The notes beneath the pieces are model-generated. The model did not search any database and had not been told where the DNA came from. It saw only the letters and a program-made list of their open reading frames with translations. A stretch of 64,000 nt of DNA, taken from assembly GCA_025929535.1 (NCBI GenBank), contig JAICLZ010000004.1, positions 1 to 64,000 of the forward strand, read 5' to 3'. The number at the start of each line of letters is the position of its first letter. Positions within the stretch are counted from its first letter, which is position 1. Origin of the DNA: Gemmatimonadaceae bacterium. Its GTDB lineage: Bacteria > Gemmatimonadota > Gemmatimonadetes > Gemmatimonadales > Gemmatimonadaceae. This document shows, one piece after another, positions 33,093 to 62,960 of this stretch. Made by a program: the position numbers and the translations under genes.

Positions 33093-33479
33093 ATGCAGAT
33101 CGCTCACATCATCATTGCTCCGCTGGGAGCTGCCGCACGGTGCCTCGTGCTCGCACTCGCGGTCGCATCGCTCGGATGCCGAAGCGGGCGTGCGGCGCGC
33201 AACGCGAACGATGGCCCGGTGCGCACGACGATCGACGTGCAGAACGAGGACTTCAACGACATGACGGTGTACGTGCTCGTGAACGGCTCGCGCACCAGGC
33301 TCGGCATCGCGAACGGCAACAAGACCACCGTGTTGACGATTCCGGAATACCTCCTCAGCGGCACCACGTTCCTGCGCTTCGTCGCGAGCCCGATCGGCGG
33401 CAATCGCACGCCGGTGAGCGAGGAGGTGGACGTCAGTCCCGGCGATCAGCTCGTAATGGTGATTCGCCCCGGTGGCTGA
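33093..33479 (+). CDS. Small lipoprotein, unknown function
   Basis: A 128-residue lipoprotein with AGGAG 7 nt before the ATG. The signal ends in lipobox VASLGC. The mature part has a basic stretch ([10 protein letters not shown]) and then a compact beta-sandwich-like domain ([35 protein letters not shown]). I recognise no named family. Its stop overlaps the preferred GTG start of the UvrA gene by 8 nt, so the two probably share a message. Confidence 0.68.
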
Positions 33480-36033
33480 TCCGCGCATGGCAAGACCGAA
33501 TCCGTACTCGCGTACCGCGCCGGTGAAGGATTCCACCGGCTTCGTGCACGTGCGCGGCGCCCGCGAACACAATCTCAAGAACATCGACGTGGAGATTCCG
33601 CGCGACGCGCTCGTGGTGTTCACGGGCGTCTCGGGCTCCGGAAAATCGTCGCTCGCCTTCGGAACGCTCTACGCGGAGGCGCAGCGCCGGTATCTCGAAT
33701 CGGTGTCGCCGTACGCACGCCGGCTCTTCCACCAGATGGCCGTGCCCGAGGTGGACGAGGTGGACGGGCTGCCTCCGGCCGTCGCGCTCCAGCAGCAACG
33801 CGGCTCGCCCACCACGCGCTCCTCGGTGGGCAGCGTCACGACGCTCTCGAATCTCCTGCGCATGCTCTATTCGCGCGCCGGACACTACCCGCCGAAGCAG
33901 GAGCATCTCGAGGCGGAGGCATTCTCGCCCAACACGCCCGCGGGTGCGTGCCCGCGCTGCCACGGGCTCGGACGCGTGTACGAGGTGACCGAACGATCGA
34001 TGGTGCCCGACGACTCGCTCACCATTCGCCAGCGCGCGATCGCCGCGTGGCCCACGGCGTGGCAGGGGCAGAATCTGCGAGACATCCTCGTCACGATGGG
34101 CTACGATGTGGACAAACCGTGGCGCGAGCTTCCGAAAAAGGAGCGCGACTGGCTGCTCTTCACCGATGAGCAGCCCACCGTGCCCGTGTACGCGGGGTAC
34201 ACGCCAGCCGAGGTGCGTCGAGCGCTCAAGCGGAAGGAAGAGCCGAGCTACATGGGCACCTTCACCGGCGCGCGCCGGTACGTGCTGCAGACCTTCGCCA
34301 ACACCGAGAGCGCGTCGATGAAGCGGCGCGTTTCCCAGTACATGGAGAGCACCGAATGCCCGCTCTGCCACGGCAAGCGGCTGCGCCTCGAATCGCTCTC
34401 CGTCACCTTCGCGGGCTACGACATTTCCGACATTTCTGCGCTGCCACTCAAGAAGCTCGCGCAGATCATGCAGCCCTATGCGAATGGCACGGCCGCGGGC
34501 CACGAGAAGCTCGAGGCGCAGCATCCCGAGAGGGCGCTGGTCACGCTCCGCATTGCGCAGGACCTGTGTGCACGGCTTTCCGTGCTTCTGGATCTCGGCC
34601 TCTCGTATGTCTCGCTCGGACGCAGCACACCCACACTGTCGCCGGGCGAGCTCCAGCGGCTTCGCCTCGCCACGCAGGTGCGCTCGAATCTGTTCGGCGT
34701 CGTCTACGTGCTCGACGAGCCCTCCGCCGGGCTGCACCCCGCGGATACCGAGGCGCTGCTGGTTGCGCTCGAGCGGCTCAAGGGATCGGGCAACTCGCTG
34801 TTCGTCGTCGAGCACGATCTCGATGTCATTCGCCGCGCGGACTGGATCGTGGACGTGGGCCCCGCAGCCGGTGAGAACGGCGGCCACGTGCTGTACAGCG
34901 GCCCGCCCGCAGGGCTCGCGGCCATCGAGGCCTCGCAAACGCGCCGGCATCTCTTCGGCAACTACGTGCTGCCGCCGCGCACGCCGCGCGCGCCCGCGGC
35001 ATGGCTCGAGCTCGAGAACGTCACGCGCAACAATCTCGACAGGCTCGATGTGCGCTTCCCGATCGGCGTGCTCACGACGGTCACCGGCGTCTCGGGCTCC
35101 GGCAAATCGAGCCTCGTGAGCCAGGCGCTCGTGGAGCTGGTTGCCGCGCAGCTCGGACACGAGCTTCCGGAGGAGTCGGACGAAGCCGAGGAGCTCGAGC
35201 GCTCGGCGCCGGTCACACTCGATGGATGCATCAAGTCGGGAATGGAGCACATCAAGCGGCTCGTGCGCGTGGATCAGAAGCCGATCGGCCGCACGCCGCG
35301 CTCGAATCTGGCCACCTACACGGGTCTTTTCGACCACGTGCGCAAACTCTTCGCGGCAACGAAAGCCGCGAAGGCGCGGCACTACGACGCGGGACGCTTC
35401 TCCTTCAACGTTGCCAAGGGCCGCTGCGATACCTGCGACGGTGAAGGCTTCGTGATGGTCGAGCTGTTGTTCCTGCCGAGCGTGTACGCGCCCTGCCCCA
35501 CCTGTCATGGTGCGCGGTACAACGCGAAGACGCTCGAGATCCAGTATCGCGGAAGGAACATTGCCGAAGTGCTCGGAATGACGGTTGACGATGCCTGGTC
35601 CTTCTTCGAGGGCGAAACGGCGCTCGTGCGCTCGCTCGGCGTCGTCCGCGAGGTCGGGCTGGGCTATCTGCGATTGGGGCAGCCCGCCACGGAGCTCTCG
35701 GGCGGCGAGGCACAGCGCATCAAGCTCGCGACCGAGCTGCAGCGGCAGCAGCGTGGCCACACGTTATATGTTCTCGATGAGCCGACCACCGGATTGCACC
35801 CGTCGGATGTGGAGAAGCTGATGCTGCAGCTCGACGGACTCGTCGAATCCGGCAACACGGTGATCGTGGTGGAGCACGACATGCGCGTGGTCGCCGGAAG
35901 CGATTGGGTCATCGACATGGGCCCCGGCGCCGGCGACGAGGGCGGGCGCATCGTTGCGGAGGGTACGCCCGCCGCGGTTGCGCGCGCGAGCGGAAGCCGC
36001 ACGGCACCGTTTCTCGCGCGCTTTCTCGGCTGA
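33472..36033 (+). CDS. UvrA-like excinuclease ATPase, class II (UvrA2)
   Basis: Dimeric ABC-type ATPase of the UvrA family. [20 protein letters not shown] and [16 protein letters not shown] give the N-terminal Walker [12 protein letters not shown] the first Walker B, and [16 protein letters not shown] plus [17 protein letters not shown] the second half. Zinc-module cysteines are present: [16 protein letters not shown], and CDTCDGEG with CPTCHG. The 853 residues are about 90 shorter than canonical UvrA, consistent with class II proteins that lack the UvrB-binding domain. Such paralogues are linked to drug self-resistance or DNA-damage tolerance. GTG 33472 and ATG 33487 are both possible starts. 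Confidence 0.88.
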
Positions 36034-41025: not shown

Positions 41026-41222
41026 GCCATAAGCCTTATCACGGCTGCGCCCGCGACGTACCCGATCGGGGGTGAAGCGCGAATTTCGCGCGGCGAAGGC
41101 ATGGTTTCGCGCACTCATCGCCTCGCCCATCGCCGCCAAGGACGCGCGCCACCGTTGCCATGCGCCCCGAGCCTCCGGAGATTCATCGGGTCTCGCTCCT
41201 GCCCTTCCCCCTTCCACTCGCA

Positions 41223-42791
41223 ATGCACTTCGAGCCGGTCGTCTTCGCGGTCGTGATCGCGGTACTGGTTGTCTCGCTCACCGCGCTCGCGCGGCGCCTG
41301 CCCGTGCCGACGCCGATTCTCCAGGTGATCGCCGGCTTCGCGGTGGCGATGATCCCGGGCGTGACGATTCCGCAGCTCGATCCCAATCTCGTGTTCTTCG
41401 TGTTTCTTCCGCCCATTCTGTGGGGGGCGGCGATGTTCACGTCCGTGCGCGAGTTCAAGCGCAACATCGACAAGATCGGCACGCTTGCGGTTGGACTCGT
41501 GATCGTGACCACGGCGGTCATCGCGGTTGTCGCACGCATGATGTTCCCGGACCTCCCATGGCCCGTTGCCGTCGCACTCGGTGCAATCATCTCGCCACCC
41601 GACGCCGTGGCCGCCACCGCCATCGTCTCGAGGCTGCGCGTGCCTCCTCGCGTCATCACCGTACTCGAGGGCGAAAGTCTCGTCAACGATGCGTCGGCGC
41701 TCGTGCTCTATCGCACCGCCGTGGCGGCAGCCGTGACGGGCGTCTTCAGCTGGGGCGAGTCCATCGTGCGCTTCTTCATCGATGCGGGCATCGGAAGCCT
41801 GATCGGCTTGCTCGTCGCGTGGCTGATCGTACGCGCGCTCCGATTGACCAGGGATCCTCTGGCCGAAGCGCTGCTGACGCTCGCCGGTCCCTACGTCGCC
41901 TGGACGGCCGCGGAATCGCTCCACGTCTCCGCGGTGCTCGCCTGCGTGGCCGGTGGCGTGTACCTCCAGCAGGGGCTCTCCACGGCCGTCGGCCCCACGT
42001 CACGCCTGCAGTCGCGCACGGTGTGGGAGCTCGTCGCCTTTCTCGTGAACGCGCTCATCTTCCTCCTCCTCGGCGCACAGTTCGGCAGCCTGATCAGGAT
42101 CGTCCCGCGCGGCGACCTCGGCGCCGTTTTTCGCGGCGGCGTGATCATCACGGTCGTCGCGATGCTCGTGCGACTGATCTGGGTGCCGGTGATCACCCTG
42201 CTCCCGCGACTCAGTGCGAACGTGCGGCGCAGAACGCCCAAACCGAACTGGAAATCGCTCACCCTCGTGTCCTGGACGAGCATGAGAGGCGTGGTCTCGC
42301 TCGCGACCGCACTGGCTCTTCCGCTCGTCATCGCGAGCGGCCAACCGTTTCCGCACCGCACCGAGATCATTCTCATCACGATGTGCGTGATCGTGCTGAC
42401 GCTGGTCGTGCAGGGGCTCTCCCTCTCGACGATCGTGCGCGTGCTGCGCTTCGAGCCCGAGGAGACGCGCCACATCGAGGAGCGGCTCGCGCGGCGCGAG
42501 GCGACGAGGCGCGGTGCGGAAGCGCTCGAGGATCTCTCGCACGAGCCGTGGGTCGATGCGCGCGATGTGGAGGCGCTCCGCGCCGAGCTCCGCGAGCGGC
42601 TCCGCAGCGATGAGCAGGAGGGCGGCCGCTTCGAGGGGCGCCGCCGGCTGCGGCTCGCAATGATCGACGCCGAGCGGCGCATGCTCATCCGACTGCGCAA
42701 TGAAGACACGATCTCGGATGAGGTGCTCCGCTCGCTCGAGCAGGAGCTCGATCTCGAGGCAGTACGGGCCGGCGGAGGAAACGCCGCCTAG
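41223..42791 (+). CDS. CPA1 family Na+/H+ antiporter
   Basis: Inner-membrane monovalent cation/proton antiporter, 522 residues. About 12 transmembrane helices; GAIISPPDAVAATAIVSRL contains the ion-binding PPDA/D motif and VLEGESLVNDASALVLYRTA the second conserved CPA1 block. The last 120 residues are a cytoplasmic, charged helical tail (RHIEERLARREATRRG-like) of the NhaP type. ATG 41223 fits the family; ATG 41160 would add 21 residues. The gene converges on, and overlaps by 4 nt, the inward-rectifier-type channel gene, giving an ion-transport pair on opposite strands. Confidence 0.9.
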   Translation: MHFEPVVFAVVIAVLVVSLTALARRLPVPTPILQVIAGFAVAMIPGVTIPQLDPNLVFFVFLPPILWGAAMFTSVREFKRNIDKIGTLAVGLVIVTTAVIAVVARMMFPDLPWPVAVALGAIISPPDAVAATAIVSRLRVPPRVITVLEGESLVNDASALVLYRTAVAAAVTGVFSWGESIVRFFIDAGIGSLIGLLVAWLIVRALRLTRDPLAEALLTLAGPYVAWTAAESLHVSAVLACVAGGVYLQQGLSTAVGPTSRLQSRTVWELVAFLVNALIFLLLGAQFGSLIRIVPRGDLGAVFRGGVIITVVAMLVRLIWVPVITLLPRLSANVRRRTPKPNWKSLTLVSWTSMRGVVSLATALALPLVIASGQPFPHRTEIILITMCVIVLTLVVQGLSLSTIVRVLRFEPEETRHIEERLARREATRRGAEALEDLSHEPWVDARDVEALRAELRERLRSDEQEGGRFEGRRRLRLAMIDAERRMLIRLRNEDTISDEVLRSLEQELDLEAVRAGGGNAA

Positions 42792-43807
42792 CGCGACGGC
42801 GCGACGCCGCGCTCGAGTGGTGCAGGCGTGCGCGTCGCCCCATCCTCGAGCCGCTCGGTGCGACTCAGGCGCTCGACGTCGATCGCGATCACGCCATCCG
42901 GACCGTTCGCGAAGATGCTCGCGAACTTCACGTCCCAGCGTATTTCGTCCCAGAGGTACGACGCGCGAGTCGAGACGCGCGTGGAGAACGTCTCCTCCAG
43001 CGCGTTGATGAAGATCAGGAACTCCGCCTGTGAATCCGCGAGGCTCTCGGGCGTGACGCCCGCGAGCGGACTGTCGGCGGTGATCGGATGCACGACGGTC
43101 CAGTGGAGGGTGAAGAACTCCACGGAGTTTCGCTCGAGCGCGAGCGCGTGAAAGTTGCGCTCGCGCGAGCCGCCGAAGTCCTCGTAGCGCACGAGATTCA
43201 CGCGCGCCTGCACGTCACTCAGCTCGCCGGGCTGGAGATTCACGATCCGGAACATGAGCGCCCGTCCACCCTCGTACGGCGCGATGATCGCCGAATCGCT
43301 AAAGCCGATGCGCATGCGCGGGCGCGTGAGCCGCGCGATGAGCAGCCCGAACGCGATGACGAGCGTGATCGGTCCGACGAACGACTCGAGGTTCACGAGC
43401 CAGTTCGCATCGGCACCGAAGGCGTGCATCATCCCGGTACCCGTGGTGGTGAACACCCCGATGCTGAACGTGAAGGCCTGCAGAAACGGGTCGACGATAC
43501 CCATGTCCTCCACGCCGCGAAGCGCGCCGTTGCCGAGGGCCAGATAGGCGAGCGCGAAGCACCCGTTCATGAGCAGCAGCACGCCCGTCATCCAGAGGAA
43601 GAACGCCGTCCAGCTCGCATCGAGTGAGGCGAGATAGAAGCGCGCGAGCCGCTGTGCGCCAAGCCCGTACTTCTTGCTGTTGGGCCTTCCGTCGCGGTTG
43701 AGAAAGCGCCCCCGCACCGCCTGCGCAACGACGCTCCCGAACCCGAGGTCGGTGGGCTGACTGAGCGGCGGTGGATCGTCGTCGAGAGTGGAGTTCGGTG
43801 CCGTCAC
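42788..43807 (-). CDS. Inward-rectifier (KirBac-type) channel with a non-canonical selectivity filter
   Basis: A 339-residue two-helix channel with the Kir cytoplasmic beta-domain. The slide helix and TM1 are WTAFFLWMTGVLLLMNGCFA, TM2 runs through the LVIAFGLLIARLTRPR region, and the intracellular domain shows FSDSAIIAPYEGGRALMFRI and the ligand-domain block SPLAGVTPESLADSQAEFLI. These align well with KirBac1.1. The filter, however, reads FTTTGTGMMH where KirBac has LATVGYGDMH, and the pore-helix Glu is Gly. K+ selectivity is therefore doubtful. GTG start at 43807. Confidence 0.88.
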   Translation of the reverse strand: MTAPNSTLDDDPPPLSQPTDLGFGSVVAQAVRGRFLNRDGRPNSKKYGLGAQRLARFYLASLDASWTAFFLWMTGVLLLMNGCFALAYLALGNGALRGVEDMGIVDPFLQAFTFSIGVFTTTGTGMMHAFGADANWLVNLESFVGPITLVIAFGLLIARLTRPRMRIGFSDSAIIAPYEGGRALMFRIVNLQPGELSDVQARVNLVRYEDFGGSRERNFHALALERNSVEFFTLHWTVVHPITADSPLAGVTPESLADSQAEFLIFINALEETFSTRVSTRASYLWDEIRWDVKFASIFANGPDGVIAIDVERLSRTERLEDGATRTPAPLERGVAPSR

Positions 43808-54304: not shown

Positions 54305-54643
54305 TCACGAGGCGAGTGACGTGGCGGCGGGCTTGAGCGACGCGAGATAGTTGGCGTACGACGCCTCCACGAGCGCGACGTTCCTCTTCCCTTTCTGCCA
54401 GAGCCACCACCCGAAGATGGCGACCGGCACGCCGATGATGGCAAGTATGATCGTAAGTGAGCTGAGTGCACCGGTGATCAGAAATCCGAGCCCCTGAAAG
54501 CGCTGCGTGGCGAACGTCGATCCATACTCTTCCTTGGCAGCGTACAACACGTCGGGATCGCTCGAACCGGTCGCCTTCAACACGCCCACCACCTGCTGGG
54601 CGCTCGTATCGGCAAGGCTGAACTTGCTCAAGTTCACGTTCAT
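54305..54643 (-). CDS. Small membrane protein, unknown function
   Basis: A 112-residue protein from the ATG at 54643 (AAGG upstream); the GTG-initiated extension in the track is less likely. The first half is soluble (SLADTSAQQVVGVLKATG). A long hydrophobic stretch (FLITGALSSLTIILAIIGVP, then VAIFGWWLW) makes two short transmembrane helices, followed by a basic turn and an amphipathic tail. I recognise no family. Divergent from the ECF sigma gene. Confidence 0.55.
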   Translation of the reverse strand: MNVNLSKFSLADTSAQQVVGVLKATGSSDPDVLYAAKEEYGSTFATQRFQGLGFLITGALSSLTIILAIIGVPVAIFGWWLWQKGKRNVALVEASYANYLASLKPAATSLAS

Positions 54644-54857
54644 CTGCGTCACCTTGTTCGTTGTGGGAATCGTTTGTTTCGAGATCACGCATGGAGCTCA
54701 CGATCCGGACGGTCATCACCCCGTGGATCACGCCCTGTTGCACGGTCCGCCAGCGGGTATTAGCGTGGACTCCGGATCGGCGCTCCTGGAGCGCCCGATC
54801 CCGATCCGATGCTCGCAGTCCTGCATGACATTGCGCAAAGGCGCGGGGAAATCCGTC

Positions 54858-55442
54858 ATGGCAGAAGGCACGCAACAGGTACAGCCACTCGAAGCAGGCA
54901 TTCCGCAGGGGATCGCGGGAAAGCGCAGCGAGCTCGATCTGCTCTTCAGTGTCACGTATGAAGAGCTGCGTCGCCTTGCCGCGAGCGTTCGTCGCAGTGA
55001 TCCCGGCGCGACGCTCAGCCCGACCATGCTCGTCAACGAAGCCTGGCTCAAGCTCGCGAGCTCGCCGCCGGCCGCCGTCGCATCGCGACTGCACTTCAAG
55101 CGCATCGCCGCGCGTGCGATGCGCCAGGTGCTCGTCGAGGCGGCGCGGCGCCACTCCGCGGAAAAACGCGGCGCCGACGTGGCCTTCGTGACATTCGATG
55201 AGGCAGTCGCCGCGAGCACGCCCGCCACCACCCATGCCGACGAATTTCTCGCCCTCGATGCTGCACTCGAGGAGCTTCGCCTCGCGCATCCGCGGCAGGC
55301 ACTGATGGTGGAGAGCCGATTCTTCGGCGGTCTCGACATCACCGAGACCGCGGAGCTTCTCGAAGTCTCCGAGGCAACGATCGTCCGCGACTGGCGAGCA
55401 GCCAAGGCATGGCTCGCACACGAGCTACACAAGCCGCGCTGA
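54858..55442 (+). CDS. ECF-type RNA polymerase sigma factor (TIGR02999-like)
   Basis: A 194-residue alternative sigma factor. Region 2 is short (LLFSVTYEELRRLAASVRRS, SPTMLVNEAWLKLA), and region 4 ends with LDITETAELLEVSEATIVRD and WRAAKAWLAHEL. This is the ECF subgroup found with Ser/Thr kinases in Acidobacteriota, Planctomycetes and Gemmatimonadota. ATG 54858 has GGGGAA upstream; ATG 54825 is an alternative. The kinase gene starts 33 nt after its stop, so the two are co-expressed. No anti-sigma factor is adjacent. Confidence 0.9.
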   Translation: MAEGTQQVQPLEAGIPQGIAGKRSELDLLFSVTYEELRRLAASVRRSDPGATLSPTMLVNEAWLKLASSPPAAVASRLHFKRIAARAMRQVLVEAARRHSAEKRGADVAFVTFDEAVAASTPATTHADEFLALDAALEELRLAHPRQALMVESRFFGGLDITETAELLEVSEATIVRDWRAAKAWLAHELHKPR

Positions 55443-55475
55443 GCGCGCGCACCGGCTTCGCAGACATCAACGGAC

Positions 55476-58112
55476 ATGGACGCCACGCGCTGGGAGCGAA
55501 TGCAGTACGTGTTCCACGGTGCATGCGATCTCGATGAGCCTGCGCGACATGCGTTCGTGGAGCGCGAGTGCGGGATCGATGCGCAGCTCAAGGCCGACGT
55601 GCTCTCGATGCTCCAGGAAGATGCGCGGCAGCATCCTCTGCTCGACGGCGACGTCGCGAACGTTGCCGGACAGCTGCTCACCAAGGGCAAGCACGCCGCG
55701 CTTCCGCTCGGCGCGTTCGGCCGCTATCGGGTGAAGCACATGCTCGGCGAGGGCGGCATGGGAGTCGTGTATCTGGCCGAGCGGGATGATCTGGGGAGTC
55801 TGGCAGCGATAAAGATCCTGCGCGATGCCTGGCTTTCACCGGCGCGGCGCGAGCGCTTCGCGAACGAGCAGCGGACGCTGGCGCAGCTGAATCATCCGTC
55901 CATCGCCCGGCTCTACGATGCGGACGCCCTGCCGGACGGCACGCCGTGGTTCGTGATGGAGTACGTGGAGGGCGTCCCGATCACGGAGTACTGCGCCGCG
56001 CACGCGTGCACGATCGCGGAGCGGCTCACTCTCTTCCGCGCGGTGTGCGAAGCCGTTCAGCACGCGCATCGGCATCTCATCATCCACCGCGATCTCAAGC
56101 CTTCGAACATTCTCGTGAGCCGCGATGGAGACGTGAAGCTGCTGGATTTCGGAATCGCGAAGCAGCTGGATACGCTCGATCAGCCGGCGAATCCCACGCT
56201 CACCGGCCTGCGGCTCATGACGCCGGCCTATGCCGCGCCGGAGCAGATGCGTGGCGGCTTCGCAGGTGTCCTCAGCGATGTCTATTCGTTGGGCGTGGTG
56301 CTGTACGAGCTCCTCACCGGCCGGCTCCCGTTCGATCTCGCGAACCGGACGCCTGCCGAAGCGGAAGCAATGGTCATCGATCACGAGCCGGTACGGCCGT
56401 CGGCCGTGGCACGACGCATCGCATCGGTGTCCAGCGTGGAGACTCGCATTCCGTCCGTCAGCAGGACTGCGTGGGCCGATCTCGATGTGCTCTGCCTCCG
56501 CGCGATTCACAAGGATCCACAGCGCAGGTACCGATCGGTCGAGGCGCTCGCGCGAGACATCGATCACTATCTCGGAGGCGAGCCGCTCGAGGCGCGCCCC
56601 GACAGTGCCAGCTATCGACTCGGGAAGTTCGCGCGCCGGAACTCTCGCGCACTGTCCGCGGCGCTCGGCACGCTCATGATCGTCGTCGCACTCACCGTCT
56701 TCTACACCGTGCGCCTCGCCAGCGCGCGGAATGCCGCCATCGCGGAGGCCGCGCGCACGACGCGCATCCAGCGGTTCATGATGAATCTCTTCCAGGGCGG
56801 CGACGCGGACGCCGGACCCGCGGACAGTCTGCGGGTCGTGACACTCGTCGATCGCGGCATGCAGGAGGCGAAGAGTCTCGACAGCGATCCGGCGACGCAG
56901 TCCGAGCTCCTGGTCACACTCGGAAGCATTTACCAGAAGCTTGGAAACTTCGAGCGCGCGGATTCCCTGCTTCGATTCGCGCTCGATGAGCGGCGCCGTT
57001 TGCTCGGCCCCGAGCATCCCGATGTCGCGGCGAGCCTCGTAGCGCTCGGCTCTCTCCGCGACTCGGAGGCGAAGTATGCGGAAGCGGAGCGGCTGATTCG
57101 CGAAGGGCTCGCGATGAGCAGGCGGCGGCTCTCACCCCAGGATCCGATGGTGCTGACGGCGACTACGGCGCTGGGGCAGCTGCTCGAGGATCGGGGCTCA
57201 TACGACGAGGCGATCTCGGTGTTGCAGGATGCCGTGCGCCTGCAGTCCGTGAGCGGTGAGTCGCGCGATCTCGCGGGAAGCATGACCGAGCTCGCGAACA
57301 GTCACTTCTATGCGGGGCATTACGGCATCTCCGATTCGCTCAATCGCCGCGTGCTCGCCATGGATCGCCGCCTGTACGGCGAGCGCCACCCGCACGTGGC
57401 CGACGATCTGATCAATCTCGGCGCCATTCAGCTCGAGCTCGGACACTTTGCGGAGGCCGAGCGGTACGATCGCGAGGCCCTGGACATCACCGCACGGTGG
57501 TACGGTCCGAACCATCAGGAAACGGCATCGGCAATGACGATCCTCAGTCGCGCGCTCGTGTCCGAGAAGCGGTACGCCGATGCAGCGGGGATGCTGGAGC
57601 AGGCGCTCGTCATCCAGGAGCACGTCTACGGGCCTGTGCATCCTCGCGTCGCATCCACCCTCAACGAGCTCGGAAGAGCGGCCGTGTCGCTCGGCCAGCT
57701 GGACGAGGCGGAGGGGTATTTCCGGCGAGAGCTGAGCATCTATCGCTCCGTGTACGACGACAAGCACTATCTGATCGGTGTCGCGCTGTCCAATCTCTCC
57801 GGAGTGGCGCTCGAGAGAAAGGATTATTCCAGAGCGGAGGCGCTCCTTCGCGATGCGCTCGCGCGTTATGCCGCGACGCTGCCACCGGACCACCAGCTGA
57901 TTGGCATCGGGAGAGTGCGACTGGGGCACGTGCTCTTGCGCGAGAAGCGCTTCGCGGAGGCGCAGTCGGAGAGTCAGGCCGGGTACGACGTTCTCATGAA
58001 GAAGAGCGGCTCATCCGTCAGCTGGATTCAGACCGCTCGTGAAGATCTCGCGACCGAGCACGACTCGCTGCAACACCCGGTGCTCGCCGCGGGCGCTGGG
58101 TCGAAACAATGA
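55476..58112 (+). CDS. Transmembrane Ser/Thr protein kinase with C-terminal TPR repeats
   Basis: An 878-residue receptor-like kinase. Residues 1-75 are a short helical lead; the kinase domain spans roughly 84-370 with GEGGMG at 91-96, the ATP lysine in AAIKIL, HRDLKPSN near 204, DFG near 226 and APEQMRGG. A transmembrane helix (LGTLMIVVALTVFYTV) follows near residue 400. The rest is a string of TPR/NPHP3-like units (LLVTLGSIYQKLGNFERADS; HPDVAASLVALGSLRDSEA). All catalytic residues are present. Likely partners are the upstream ECF sigma factor, perhaps as its activator, and peptides bound by the TPRs; both are inference. Confidence 0.92.
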   Translation: MDATRWERMQYVFHGACDLDEPARHAFVERECGIDAQLKADVLSMLQEDARQHPLLDGDVANVAGQLLTKGKHAALPLGAFGRYRVKHMLGEGGMGVVYLAERDDLGSLAAIKILRDAWLSPARRERFANEQRTLAQLNHPSIARLYDADALPDGTPWFVMEYVEGVPITEYCAAHACTIAERLTLFRAVCEAVQHAHRHLIIHRDLKPSNILVSRDGDVKLLDFGIAKQLDTLDQPANPTLTGLRLMTPAYAAPEQMRGGFAGVLSDVYSLGVVLYELLTGRLPFDLANRTPAEAEAMVIDHEPVRPSAVARRIASVSSVETRIPSVSRTAWADLDVLCLRAIHKDPQRRYRSVEALARDIDHYLGGEPLEARPDSASYRLGKFARRNSRALSAALGTLMIVVALTVFYTVRLASARNAAIAEAARTTRIQRFMMNLFQGGDADAGPADSLRVVTLVDRGMQEAKSLDSDPATQSELLVTLGSIYQKLGNFERADSLLRFALDERRRLLGPEHPDVAASLVALGSLRDSEAKYAEAERLIREGLAMSRRRLSPQDPMVLTATTALGQLLEDRGSYDEAISVLQDAVRLQSVSGESRDLAGSMTELANSHFYAGHYGISDSLNRRVLAMDRRLYGERHPHVADDLINLGAIQLELGHFAEAERYDREALDITARWYGPNHQETASAMTILSRALVSEKRYADAAGMLEQALVIQEHVYGPVHPRVASTLNELGRAAVSLGQLDEAEGYFRRELSIYRSVYDDKHYLIGVALSNLSGVALERKDYSRAEALLRDALARYAATLPPDHQLIGIGRVRLGHVLLREKRFAEAQSESQAGYDVLMKKSGSSVSWIQTAREDLATEHDSLQHPVLAAGAGSKQ

Positions 58113-60025: not shown

Positions 60026-62536
60026 TCAGACTCGCGCAGCCACTGCACCCGTGGACGTGCGAAGCCGCGCGTCCGCCGCCCCGGCCTGCGCGTGCTCGAG
60101 CGCGCGTGCGACCTCCCGGCTGGAGCCGGGATACTCCGGATGCAACCGGACCACGTCGCGCCGCGGTACCCTACCCCGCGTCGCAAGCACGACGGCGGTA
60201 TCCGGCACGGCCGCAATGCTCGCGATCTCGCCGCCGACCACGAGTGGACGCGGACCGAGCATCATGCGAAGCGGCGACTGGTCCCTGGTTGGCACCGGAG
60301 CGCCGCGGAGCACGGACAGCGCCTGTGCAATGCGACTTGGTGCACTGAACCACGCCGCACCGCCCGCGAACATCTGCGCCATGTGCGGTTGCGTGCGAGT
60401 CACGGCAGTCGGCCCCGAGATCGCCTCCATCGCCAGGCTGCCCCGCACCGTATTGCCCTCGACATCACTCGGCGCGAGCTGCCAGGCCTGCCCCGCACGC
60501 TGGGAGATGAGCTCGTCCGTTGCTGGCGAACGCCCCGACAACGCGATGACACTTCCGAAAATCGACAGCCACTTGAGCGCGGTCGCCTCCCCGAGCTTCG
60601 CGTTGACTCCCTCGATTCCCTGCGTTGCCGCGACCATGGCCAGTCCAAGAGAGCGGCCGATCGGCAGCATCTGCGCGTCCTGCGTCGTCGCGACTTCCTG
60701 CGCTTCGTCGACGATGAACGCCACCGGTGTTTCCGACGTTCCGCTCCAATCGCGATCCGCACGCGACTTGAGTCCGCTGAAGAGCCGCGCCTTTATCAGC
60801 GCAGTGACCACCGACCCCGCAACACCGTAGCGATATTCGGGGATGAGCAGGCCGATTCTTCCTCCCGTGAGTGGAGCGAGGATGTCGATCGAGTCCTTGC
60901 CCGCGGGCGTCTTCGCCCATCGCAGAAGCTCCGGCGTGGCGGTGATCGTCGAGATCCACGAGCGAATGACCGCGAGAATGTTGCTGCGGGTCTTCTCCTC
61001 CATCGTGTCCCACTCGAAGCGGAAGTACGTGAATGCTTCCCGCAGCAGCGGGTCCTCGTCCGCCTTCGGAAGGAGCGCGTCGATGAGCTGATCGCGATCC
61101 TGTTTGTTGCTCACCACCTGCGCGGAGTGATAGAGCGACCACCATGCGCCGCCCGCGGCCTGCGCGATCACCGCGCCGCGCCTGAGCGCGCCCGCTGCGC
61201 TGTTGACCCAGAACATGTCCTGTCCCGCTCCGGCCGGCGCGAGGATCTCGCGTACGGTATCGATGATCACCGAGGGCTCCACTCCGGACACGAGCGAGAC
61301 CTCCACGCCGCGCGCCGGGTCCACGAGCTGCATGCCGGGCAGATCCGCCAGCTCACTCGGAAGCGCGCCCTTGCCGTCCATGATCACGAGCCCGATGTCT
61401 TCGTGCTCGCTGAGCTGCCGCGCGAGCGGACGCAGAATTCCCGACGTCTTCCCGGAGCCCGTGCCGCCAAGCACCAGCGCGTGCATCTGCAGATCCCGCA
61501 GCGAAAGTCGGAACGGCAGTCCCGCGCTCGGCGCGAAGACATCGCCACGGCCGGCGAACACGCCGGTGGTTTCGCCCAGCTCCACGGCGGCGCTCGTATC
61601 TCGCGTGGCCTCGAGGATCTGCCGCCTGCGCGCCGTCTCCGGAATCGCACCCCACGCCTGCCCGCCTGCCGCGACGAACGCAGAGCCTTCGACGCCTTCG
61701 GCAGCCTGGAGCTCCAGAGCGCGGTTCATCAGCGGGCGTCTGTCGCGAATCAGCTTGAGAAGGAGGATGAACAACACCATCCATGAGCCACCGTGCTTCG
61801 TGAAGCTGAACATGTCCGTCGCGAATCCGAATGGACTGCCACCCATTCCTGGTCCGCCGCCCAACCCGCCCGCCGAAGGATCGAATCCCTCGGCACCCTG
61901 CGGAACCGCCCCCGGCGCGGCCGTGGTGAACAGATACGCCACGGCCCATCCGACTGCGAACGCGGTCAGTATCCACCAGAGCGAGCGATTGGTCGCTTCG
62001 AGCGTGCGTCCATCTTCCGCGGAAATTTCGGACGAGAGCGGGCGCCCATCGATCGTGAGCCAGCTGTTCTGCACTTCGTCGCGCAGATCAGCGGGCGTGT
62101 CGGGCGGAAGGTCTCTCAGGAACGCGCGTTTGACGATCGACTGCGCTTCATGGCTCGCCGACGCCGGACACGCGAGGCGCATCAGCACCGGTACCGCGAA
62201 GAAGAGAAAGGCGCCGAAGGCCGCAAAGCCGAGGAGAATGCCGAAGCGGTCGCCTCCTCTGAAGGCGAACTTCTCGCCCAGGAACACCGTCGCCAGCCAG
62301 GCAGCGGCAATCACGGCGAGCTGCATCCCATGCGCGCTCTCGGAGACGATGCGGCCGAGCAGGCGATGGTAGACCTCCCGCGCAATCCTGACGATGCTCC
62401 CGTCGTGCGAGGGAGCGAAGAACACGAGTGGATCGACCGGGACGAACTTCCAGAACCAGTAGTTGACGATCGATGGATCCAGAGCGATCGGCTTTGGCCC
62501 GACTGCGGTGATCTCCTTCATTATCGACTCGCTCAT
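60026..62536 (-). CDS. VirD4/TraD-like (type IV coupling protein family) membrane ATPase
   Basis: An 836-residue hexameric-ATPase candidate. ATG 62536 has AGGAGG 7 nt upstream. Three or four transmembrane helices lie in the first 270 residues, broken by a Gly-rich loop (GGLGGGPGMGGSPFGFA). The motor domain has Walker A GGTGSGKTSG near residue 357, a DGKG strand (GLVIMDGKGALPSELA), and Walker B VAFIVDEAQEV near 610. This is the TraD/VirD4/TrwB fold, used to pump DNA or effectors in conjugation. No relaxase, T4SS channel, pilus or mobility gene is nearby, so conjugation is not supported. HerA/FtsK-like roles are alternatives. Confidence 0.82.
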   Translation of the reverse strand: MSESIMKEITAVGPKPIALDPSIVNYWFWKFVPVDPLVFFAPSHDGSIVRIAREVYHRLLGRIVSESAHGMQLAVIAAAWLATVFLGEKFAFRGGDRFGILLGFAAFGAFLFFAVPVLMRLACPASASHEAQSIVKRAFLRDLPPDTPADLRDEVQNSWLTIDGRPLSSEISAEDGRTLEATNRSLWWILTAFAVGWAVAYLFTTAAPGAVPQGAEGFDPSAGGLGGGPGMGGSPFGFATDMFSFTKHGGSWMVLFILLLKLIRDRRPLMNRALELQAAEGVEGSAFVAAGGQAWGAIPETARRRQILEATRDTSAAVELGETTGVFAGRGDVFAPSAGLPFRLSLRDLQMHALVLGGTGSGKTSGILRPLARQLSEHEDIGLVIMDGKGALPSELADLPGMQLVDPARGVEVSLVSGVEPSVIIDTVREILAPAGAGQDMFWVNSAAGALRRGAVIAQAAGGAWWSLYHSAQVVSNKQDRDQLIDALLPKADEDPLLREAFTYFRFEWDTMEEKTRSNILAVIRSWISTITATPELLRWAKTPAGKDSIDILAPLTGGRIGLLIPEYRYGVAGSVVTALIKARLFSGLKSRADRDWSGTSETPVAFIVDEAQEVATTQDAQMLPIGRSLGLAMVAATQGIEGVNAKLGEATALKWLSIFGSVIALSGRSPATDELISQRAGQAWQLAPSDVEGNTVRGSLAMEAISGPTAVTRTQPHMAQMFAGGAAWFSAPSRIAQALSVLRGAPVPTRDQSPLRMMLGPRPLVVGGEIASIAAVPDTAVVLATRGRVPRRDVVRLHPEYPGSSREVARALEHAQAGAADARLRTSTGAVAARV

Positions 62537-62960
62537 CGCATTCCTCCTCATTCCGTTCGACCGACGAGACACGCGCGCACCGATAGCGCATGCAGGCTGA
62601 CGCTGTGCATTGCGCAATCGCGCGGAGAAAGTCGTCAAAGGCGGATCGAGAGGGCTGCGGGAGCGGGATTCTGATACCCTCGAGCGCGCAGCTTTCTGAA
62701 CGGTGTGCCGCTGGCCCGTGACTCACTGCGATCTCGCCCCTGACAGCCAGGTCACGAGCCTGCTCGTGGTCCGGCGTCCTACACGGCCGTTCACGAGAGT
62801 TCCCCTCGATCTGCTCTTTCGTCCGATCCGATCAGCTTCACACGACTCGTAGCCTTCTCGAAACCGGAGGGCCGCTCGCGAGCGGCTCCCAATTCACGAG
62901 GCACGTGCTGCGAAAATGCGAGTGTGCTGATCGAGCGTGGCTCATACATCGGAGATCGAG
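62537..62960. other. Divergent intergenic region, no gene seen
   Basis: About 420 nt between the ATPase operon and the next lipoprotein gene, which point away from each other. Track ORFs crossing it (62148-62726, 62791-63000) are Arg-rich shadows. It presumably holds both promoters, but I see no convincing -35/-10 pair, repeat or RNA gene. Confidence 0.6.

Follow-up and report, generated by a model that had tools for sequence, protein, structure and literature searches.

NirBac2.1 from Gemmatimonas aurantiaca T-27 (YP_002762692), a Kir-type channel with the filter sequence TTGTD, was described in 2015 by Zubcevic et al. (PMC4607889). In the same study, NirBac1.1 and NirBac1.2 from Anaeromyxobacter were found by 22Na+ flux to be non-selective cation channels passing Na+, K+, Rb+ and others, while the expression of NirBac2.1 was not taken further and no neighbour of its gene was described, and the cellular role of bacterial Kir-type channels was posed as an open question (PMC4607889). 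TbIRK, a Kir relative, has no TxGYG signature, yet its preference for K+ over Na+ exceeds 7-fold (PMC5429665). NaK, with the filter TVGDGN, retains only the S3 and S4 sites and is non-selective (PMC9822992). In alkaliphilic Bacillus the cycling of Na+ between channels and antiporters is established, and one of the channels concerned is non-selective (PMC4225499).

The locus analysed here lies in a 64,000-nucleotide stretch of a Gemmatimonadaceae genome (contig JAICLZ010000004.1, positions 1 to 64,000), referred to as the window. Its channel is like NirBac2.1 in being KirBac-like throughout and in having a filter without Tyr, but it reads TTGTG instead of TTGTD. It is about 58% identical to a channel of our sample (L041, filter TTTGTD), which is presumably NirBac2.1 itself. 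With NirBac1.1 and NirBac1.2 it shares a Kir domain and the lack of TxGYG; in those two proteins the entire P-loop is, by description, unrelated to KirBac, whereas in the window channel the pore helix and the inner filter are recognisable, which sets the two types apart. Slide helix, TM1, pore helix, TM2 and Kir domain are common to the window channel and the K+-selective KirBac3.1 and KirBac1.1. Unlike them, the window channel has no TxGYG and carries a Gly-Pro in TM2 and a non-aromatic gate residue. NaK resembles NirBac2 in its altered outer and retained inner filter half, but it has no Kir domain and belongs to another subfamily.

The channel gene and its predicted structure

The channel gene extends over positions 42788 to 43807 of the minus strand and encodes 339 amino acids, from a predicted GTG start at 43807 to a stop at 42788. 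A sequence-only reading of the window had proposed this open reading frame with the filter TTGTG, and both were recovered. The filter codons T120, T121, T122, G123, T124 and G125 (TTTGTG; 43433 to 43450, minus strand) replace (A/T)TIGYG and are directly followed by Met-Met-His. The pattern T(V/I)G(Y/F)G of K+-selective KirBacs is present in 75/75 canonical relatives and is absent from the window channel.

In other respects the architecture is that of a KirBac, with two transmembrane helices, a pore helix and an IRK_C domain. The cytoplasmic Kir domain (PF17655; 42845 to 43309, minus strand) was matched at 5e-20. KirBac3.1 structures matched the reading frame at 6e-49 and were aligned through the pore loop without any gap, which agrees with the gapless pore alignment claimed previously. 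The best PDB matches of the predicted fold were all KirBac3.1 (E 7.5e-30, about 36% identity). The predicted monomer consisted of a slide helix, TM1 (residues 66-90; 43538 to 43612), the pore helix (residues 107-120; 43448 to 43489), the filter, TM2 (residues 132-160; 43328 to 43414), all on the minus strand, and a beta-rich Kir domain. The mean pLDDT was 75, with values of about 80-93 in the stretch from TM1 to TM2. The TM-scores of the monomer against KirBac were about 0.5 and the rmsd 8-12 Å, as would be expected if a monomer model does not fix the orientation of the two domains. The window reading frame is a full-length KirBac homologue, with a similarity far above chance.

Three other features of the window were observed when its translations were read. 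A UvrA-like ABC protein of 853 aa (33472 to 36033, plus strand) looks like a short UvrA paralogue. The interval 54507 to 58112 (plus strand) appears to encode an ECF-type sigma factor and, after it, a Ser/Thr protein kinase that has tetratricopeptide-like repeats. A putative TraD/VirD4-like conjugation-type coupling ATPase (60026 to 62638, minus strand) may be the sign of a mobile element close to the window's right-hand end.

A NirBac2 clade in Gemmatimonadota

A scan of species genomes for relatives of the channel returned 19 loci, and the search was extended to 395 genomes of Gemmatimonadota, 120 of which contained Kir homologues. Identity to the window channel was bimodal, 53-100% in one group and below about 47% in the other, and the filter type tracked this split exactly. 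All members of the upper group in which the pore was covered were devoid of the filter Tyr/Phe, and all those below displayed T(I/V)G(Y/F)G. For the comparison of the filter and of individual columns, 44 channels of the upper group were set against 75 canonical KirBacs, namely KirBac3.1 and 74 members found in the phylum.

In a tree calculated with the pore-loop columns removed, the channels with altered filters formed a single clade (SH-aLRT 100), which answers the question, raised in the sequence-only reading, of whether this filter type constitutes a clade. L041 falls inside it with the same support. By its placement in the tree, the window channel adds a member to the already named NirBac2 group, and with NirBac2.1 published in 2015 the altered filter can no longer be regarded as a novelty of this locus.

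Filter Tyr/Phe was found in 0/44 clade members. Pairwise dN/dS values between close channels ranged from 0.04 to 0.21, which indicates that the genes are intact and working and are under purifying selection. A sequencing error that hides a TVGYG filter, an objection anticipated earlier, was thus excluded, as was a pseudogene, since 43 other non-identical sequences have no Tyr/Phe at this position and their genes show the same constraint. A peculiarity unique to the window genome was likewise rejected, given a clade of 44 members.

A canonical KirBac was also present in 9/36 NirBac2 genomes, a share close to that of the remaining genomes; NirBac2 was therefore not seen to replace, or to depend on, a canonical KirBac. 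In the window genome (93% complete) no Ion_trans_2 (PF07885) channel and no other Kir was found; Ion_trans_2 was detected in 11/14 control genomes. The plasmid search returned only distant relatives (<60% identity). The sole locus labelled outside Gemmatimonadota (L012) comes from a 7.6 Mb genome labelled Planctomycetota MAG-27. Its channel nests within those of Gemmatimonadaceae, and the same genome has two fragments of the antiporter described below (71% and 55% identity). This makes a contaminated bin a likelier explanation than a transfer.

Pairing with a CPA1 antiporter

The convergent neighbour of the channel gene is a CPA1 Na+/H+ antiporter of 543 aa (41160 to 42791, plus strand). It scored 341 bits against the TIGR00831 profile, above the curated cut-off of 279.6. 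The stop codons of both genes overlap tail to tail by 4 bp (42788 to 42791), as had been read from the sequence. The Asn-Asp (ND) motif is located in LEGESLVNDASAL, and N and D are found in 40/40 antiporter orthologues. The ND pair of CPA1 exchangers is associated with electroneutral exchange. The partner antiporter is accordingly expected to be electroneutral, and the ion specificity of a CPA1 protein is not readable from its sequence. A second CPA1 antiporter (38% identity) is located on contig C67 of the window genome.

The antiporter had previously been mentioned only as a neighbour, and the link turned out to be much stronger than this. The NirBac2 channel and this antiporter subfamily were found in the same 36/395 genomes, and 359 genomes have neither of them. 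Antiporter identity was at least 56% in the 36 genomes, followed by a gap down to at most 42% outside the set. The raw chance of the coincidence is about 1e-51, a value which is overstated by shared ancestry and is not readable as a probability. The presence or absence of both genes co-varies within seven genera (g2, g4, g7, g10, g12, g16 and g18). Species with both genes stand beside species with neither in at least seven genera, suggesting that the pair was repeatedly gained or lost together.

Wherever both genes lie on one stretch and are linked they are convergent, and the end-to-end gap ranges from a short overlap, 17 bp at L147, to about 0.9 kb. In one genome (L159; G331, contig C5:341585-364750) about 20 kb lies between the two genes, whose relative orientation is unchanged. 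The interval holds other genes, one of them resembling a Ser/Thr kinase, and no other clear separation was seen among the sampled genomes. A true absence of the antiporter at L051, L052, L055 and L148 was considered and rejected; a 20-kb separation accounts for one genome and contig ends for the others.

Two general causes of the adjacency could be discarded. The antiporter was near 0/74 canonical KirBac loci of the phylum (about 4 kb on each side where the contig allows), so it is not a general neighbour of Kir genes. The other window genes tested between 33 and 51 kb recur in only 0-5 of 49 NirBac2 loci, which rules out general synteny. No description of the pairing was found in the open-access literature, and the near-obligate association of the NirBac2 channel with one CPA1 subfamily is the new part of these results.

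The antiporters form one clade (support 100), and their pairwise distances correlate with those of the channels (r 0.85). Such co-diversification, together with the restriction of both genes to the same lineages, would also be produced by two genes that are merely co-inherited through linked gain and loss, with no joint function. We consider this very unlikely, because the pair stays adjacent while all the other neighbours turn over, and both genes are retained even in the genome in which 20 kb separates them.

Alternatively, channel and antiporter may be opposed in their use, the channel serving influx in one condition and the antiporter extrusion in another, with overlapping transcripts that would make them mutually exclusive in an excludon-like manner. 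The linked pairs do overlap tail to tail or sit at a short gap, and no clear terminator was seen between the two window genes, although in a GC-rich genome such a scan carries little weight. Regulation of convergent genes through overlapping 3' ends has a precedent (PMC7154746). However, the gap differs between loci, reaching about 0.9 kb in linked pairs and 20 kb in one genome, so the overlap is not strictly conserved, and we give opposed use a small, though not negligible, probability.

The altered pore and the possible role of the pair

Across the clade the inner filter is near-fixed (T120 in 43/44, T121 in 41/44 and G123 in 40/44 members), whereas the outer positions vary like an average column or worse. 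Position 124, the canonical Tyr, is T in 34 members, S in 3, A in 3, V in 3 and I in 1. Position 125 is G in 21/44 members and D, A, S, T, E or P in the other 23. In the canonical relatives the filter T, G, Y/F and G are each found in 75/75. Altogether 23 distinct filter hexamers were counted among the 44 sequences. As judged from these columns, the inner half of the filter (Thr-Thr-x-Gly, S3/S4) is kept in the clade and the outer half (Tyr-Gly, S1/S2) is lost. The same combination is found in the non-selective NaK, an analogy that supports the reading of NirBac2 as likely non-selective.

The surrounding pore is altered as well. G117 of the pore helix is representative of the clade, in which Gly, Ser or Ala occupies a position that is E, Q, H or D in canonical relatives. 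The loss of a pore-helix Glu pointed out in the sequence-only reading thus holds as the loss of a polar residue, but Glu itself is not invariant. The change from Asp to Met after the filter, also considered informative, is not, since the canonical KirBacs of the phylum vary there (N, H, A, S, Q, E). Conservation of TM2 had been claimed too. It holds only in part, as TM2 has acquired a clade-specific Gly-Pro (G145-P146 in the window channel; Pro in 40/44 members and not among the residues listed for the 75 canonical relatives) and has lost its aromatic gate. The residue at the bundle crossing (I157 in the window channel) is Ile, Val or Leu in 44/44 members; in canonical relatives it is Phe in 71, Ile in 3 and Tyr in 1.

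The most extreme filters were those of L036 (TTSDTT) and L040 (TTSDAS), in which the central Gly is replaced by Asp, and of L028 (TTTSTG) and L030 (TTTSTA), in which it is replaced by Ser; these four are good candidates for functional study. The TM2 Gly-Pro, the lost aromatic gate and the absence of the filter Gly from four members could reflect altered gating or non-conduction. The latter would fit a Kir-like subunit that conducts no ions and binds to, or senses for, the antiporter, its pore loop drifting since nothing passes through it. The Pro in TM2, the missing aromatic gate and the variable outer filter columns agree with such a subunit. Drift, however, would not preserve the inner filter Thr/Thr/Gly, nor Ser115 and Gly131 in the loop, all of which are nearly or fully invariant even between proteins only 53-60% identical, and this makes a non-conducting subunit quite unlikely.

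The changed pore, Na+-permeable or non-selective, that had been suggested for this gene is still the best reading of the filter, with NirBac1.1 and NirBac1.2 as precedents. It is weakened by TbIRK, which keeps its K+ preference without TxGYG. By the same token the NirBac2 channel might retain a preference for K+ through its non-canonical filter, the antiporter might be a K+/H+ exchanger and the pair might cycle K+. The more than 7-fold preference of TbIRK (PMC5429665) and the retained Thr-Thr-x-Gly favor this possibility. Nevertheless it appears unlikely, as the prokaryotic Kir relatives with an altered filter for which function has been tested, NirBac1.1 and NirBac1.2, are non-selective (PMC4607889), and the outer filter Gly, missing in about half of the clade, is hard to fit with a precise four-site K+ filter.

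We regard it as an even call that the NirBac2 channel lets monovalent cations through, hardly or not at all favoring K+, and cycles them with the convergent CPA1 antiporter. NirBac2 would form a tetrameric, gated Kir-type pore with little or no preference for K+, through which the inside-negative membrane potential would draw Na+, or Na+ plus K+, inward. The electroneutral antiporter would then expel Na+ in exchange for H+, so that the cation is recycled. An ND-pair exchanger, if electroneutral as expected, would be unable to exploit the membrane potential on its own. The net result would be a gated, cation-dependent uptake of H+ driven by the membrane potential, serving cytoplasmic pH and Na+ homeostasis, and the cycle could be gated through the Kir domain. 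The convergent orientation counts against this scheme, as it implies that channel and antiporter have no shared transcript.

By analogy, the cycle would resemble that of the Nav-type channels which feed antiporters in alkaliphilic Bacillus. There, NavBp and NsvBa, the latter non-selective, contribute to pH homeostasis by providing cation/proton antiporters with cations (PMC4225499), as is proposed for the pair described here. Unlike NirBac2, both are voltage-gated 6-TM channels. To our knowledge, neither of their genes forms a conserved pair with that of one antiporter.

It is possible, and we propose it only tentatively, that NirBac2 and the antiporter are dedicated to each other as a two-protein unit and perhaps bind in a physical complex, the gated non-selective pore making a potential-driven proton importer of an electroneutral exchanger. 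If true, this would assign a NirBac channel its first physiological role. The filters of the clade provide a natural series on one scaffold for asking which residues set selectivity. The pairing with the antiporter gives a first lead on the cellular function of a NirBac channel, and the constancy of this partner makes the role of a Kir channel testable in the cultivable Gemmatimonas by means of single and double deletions.
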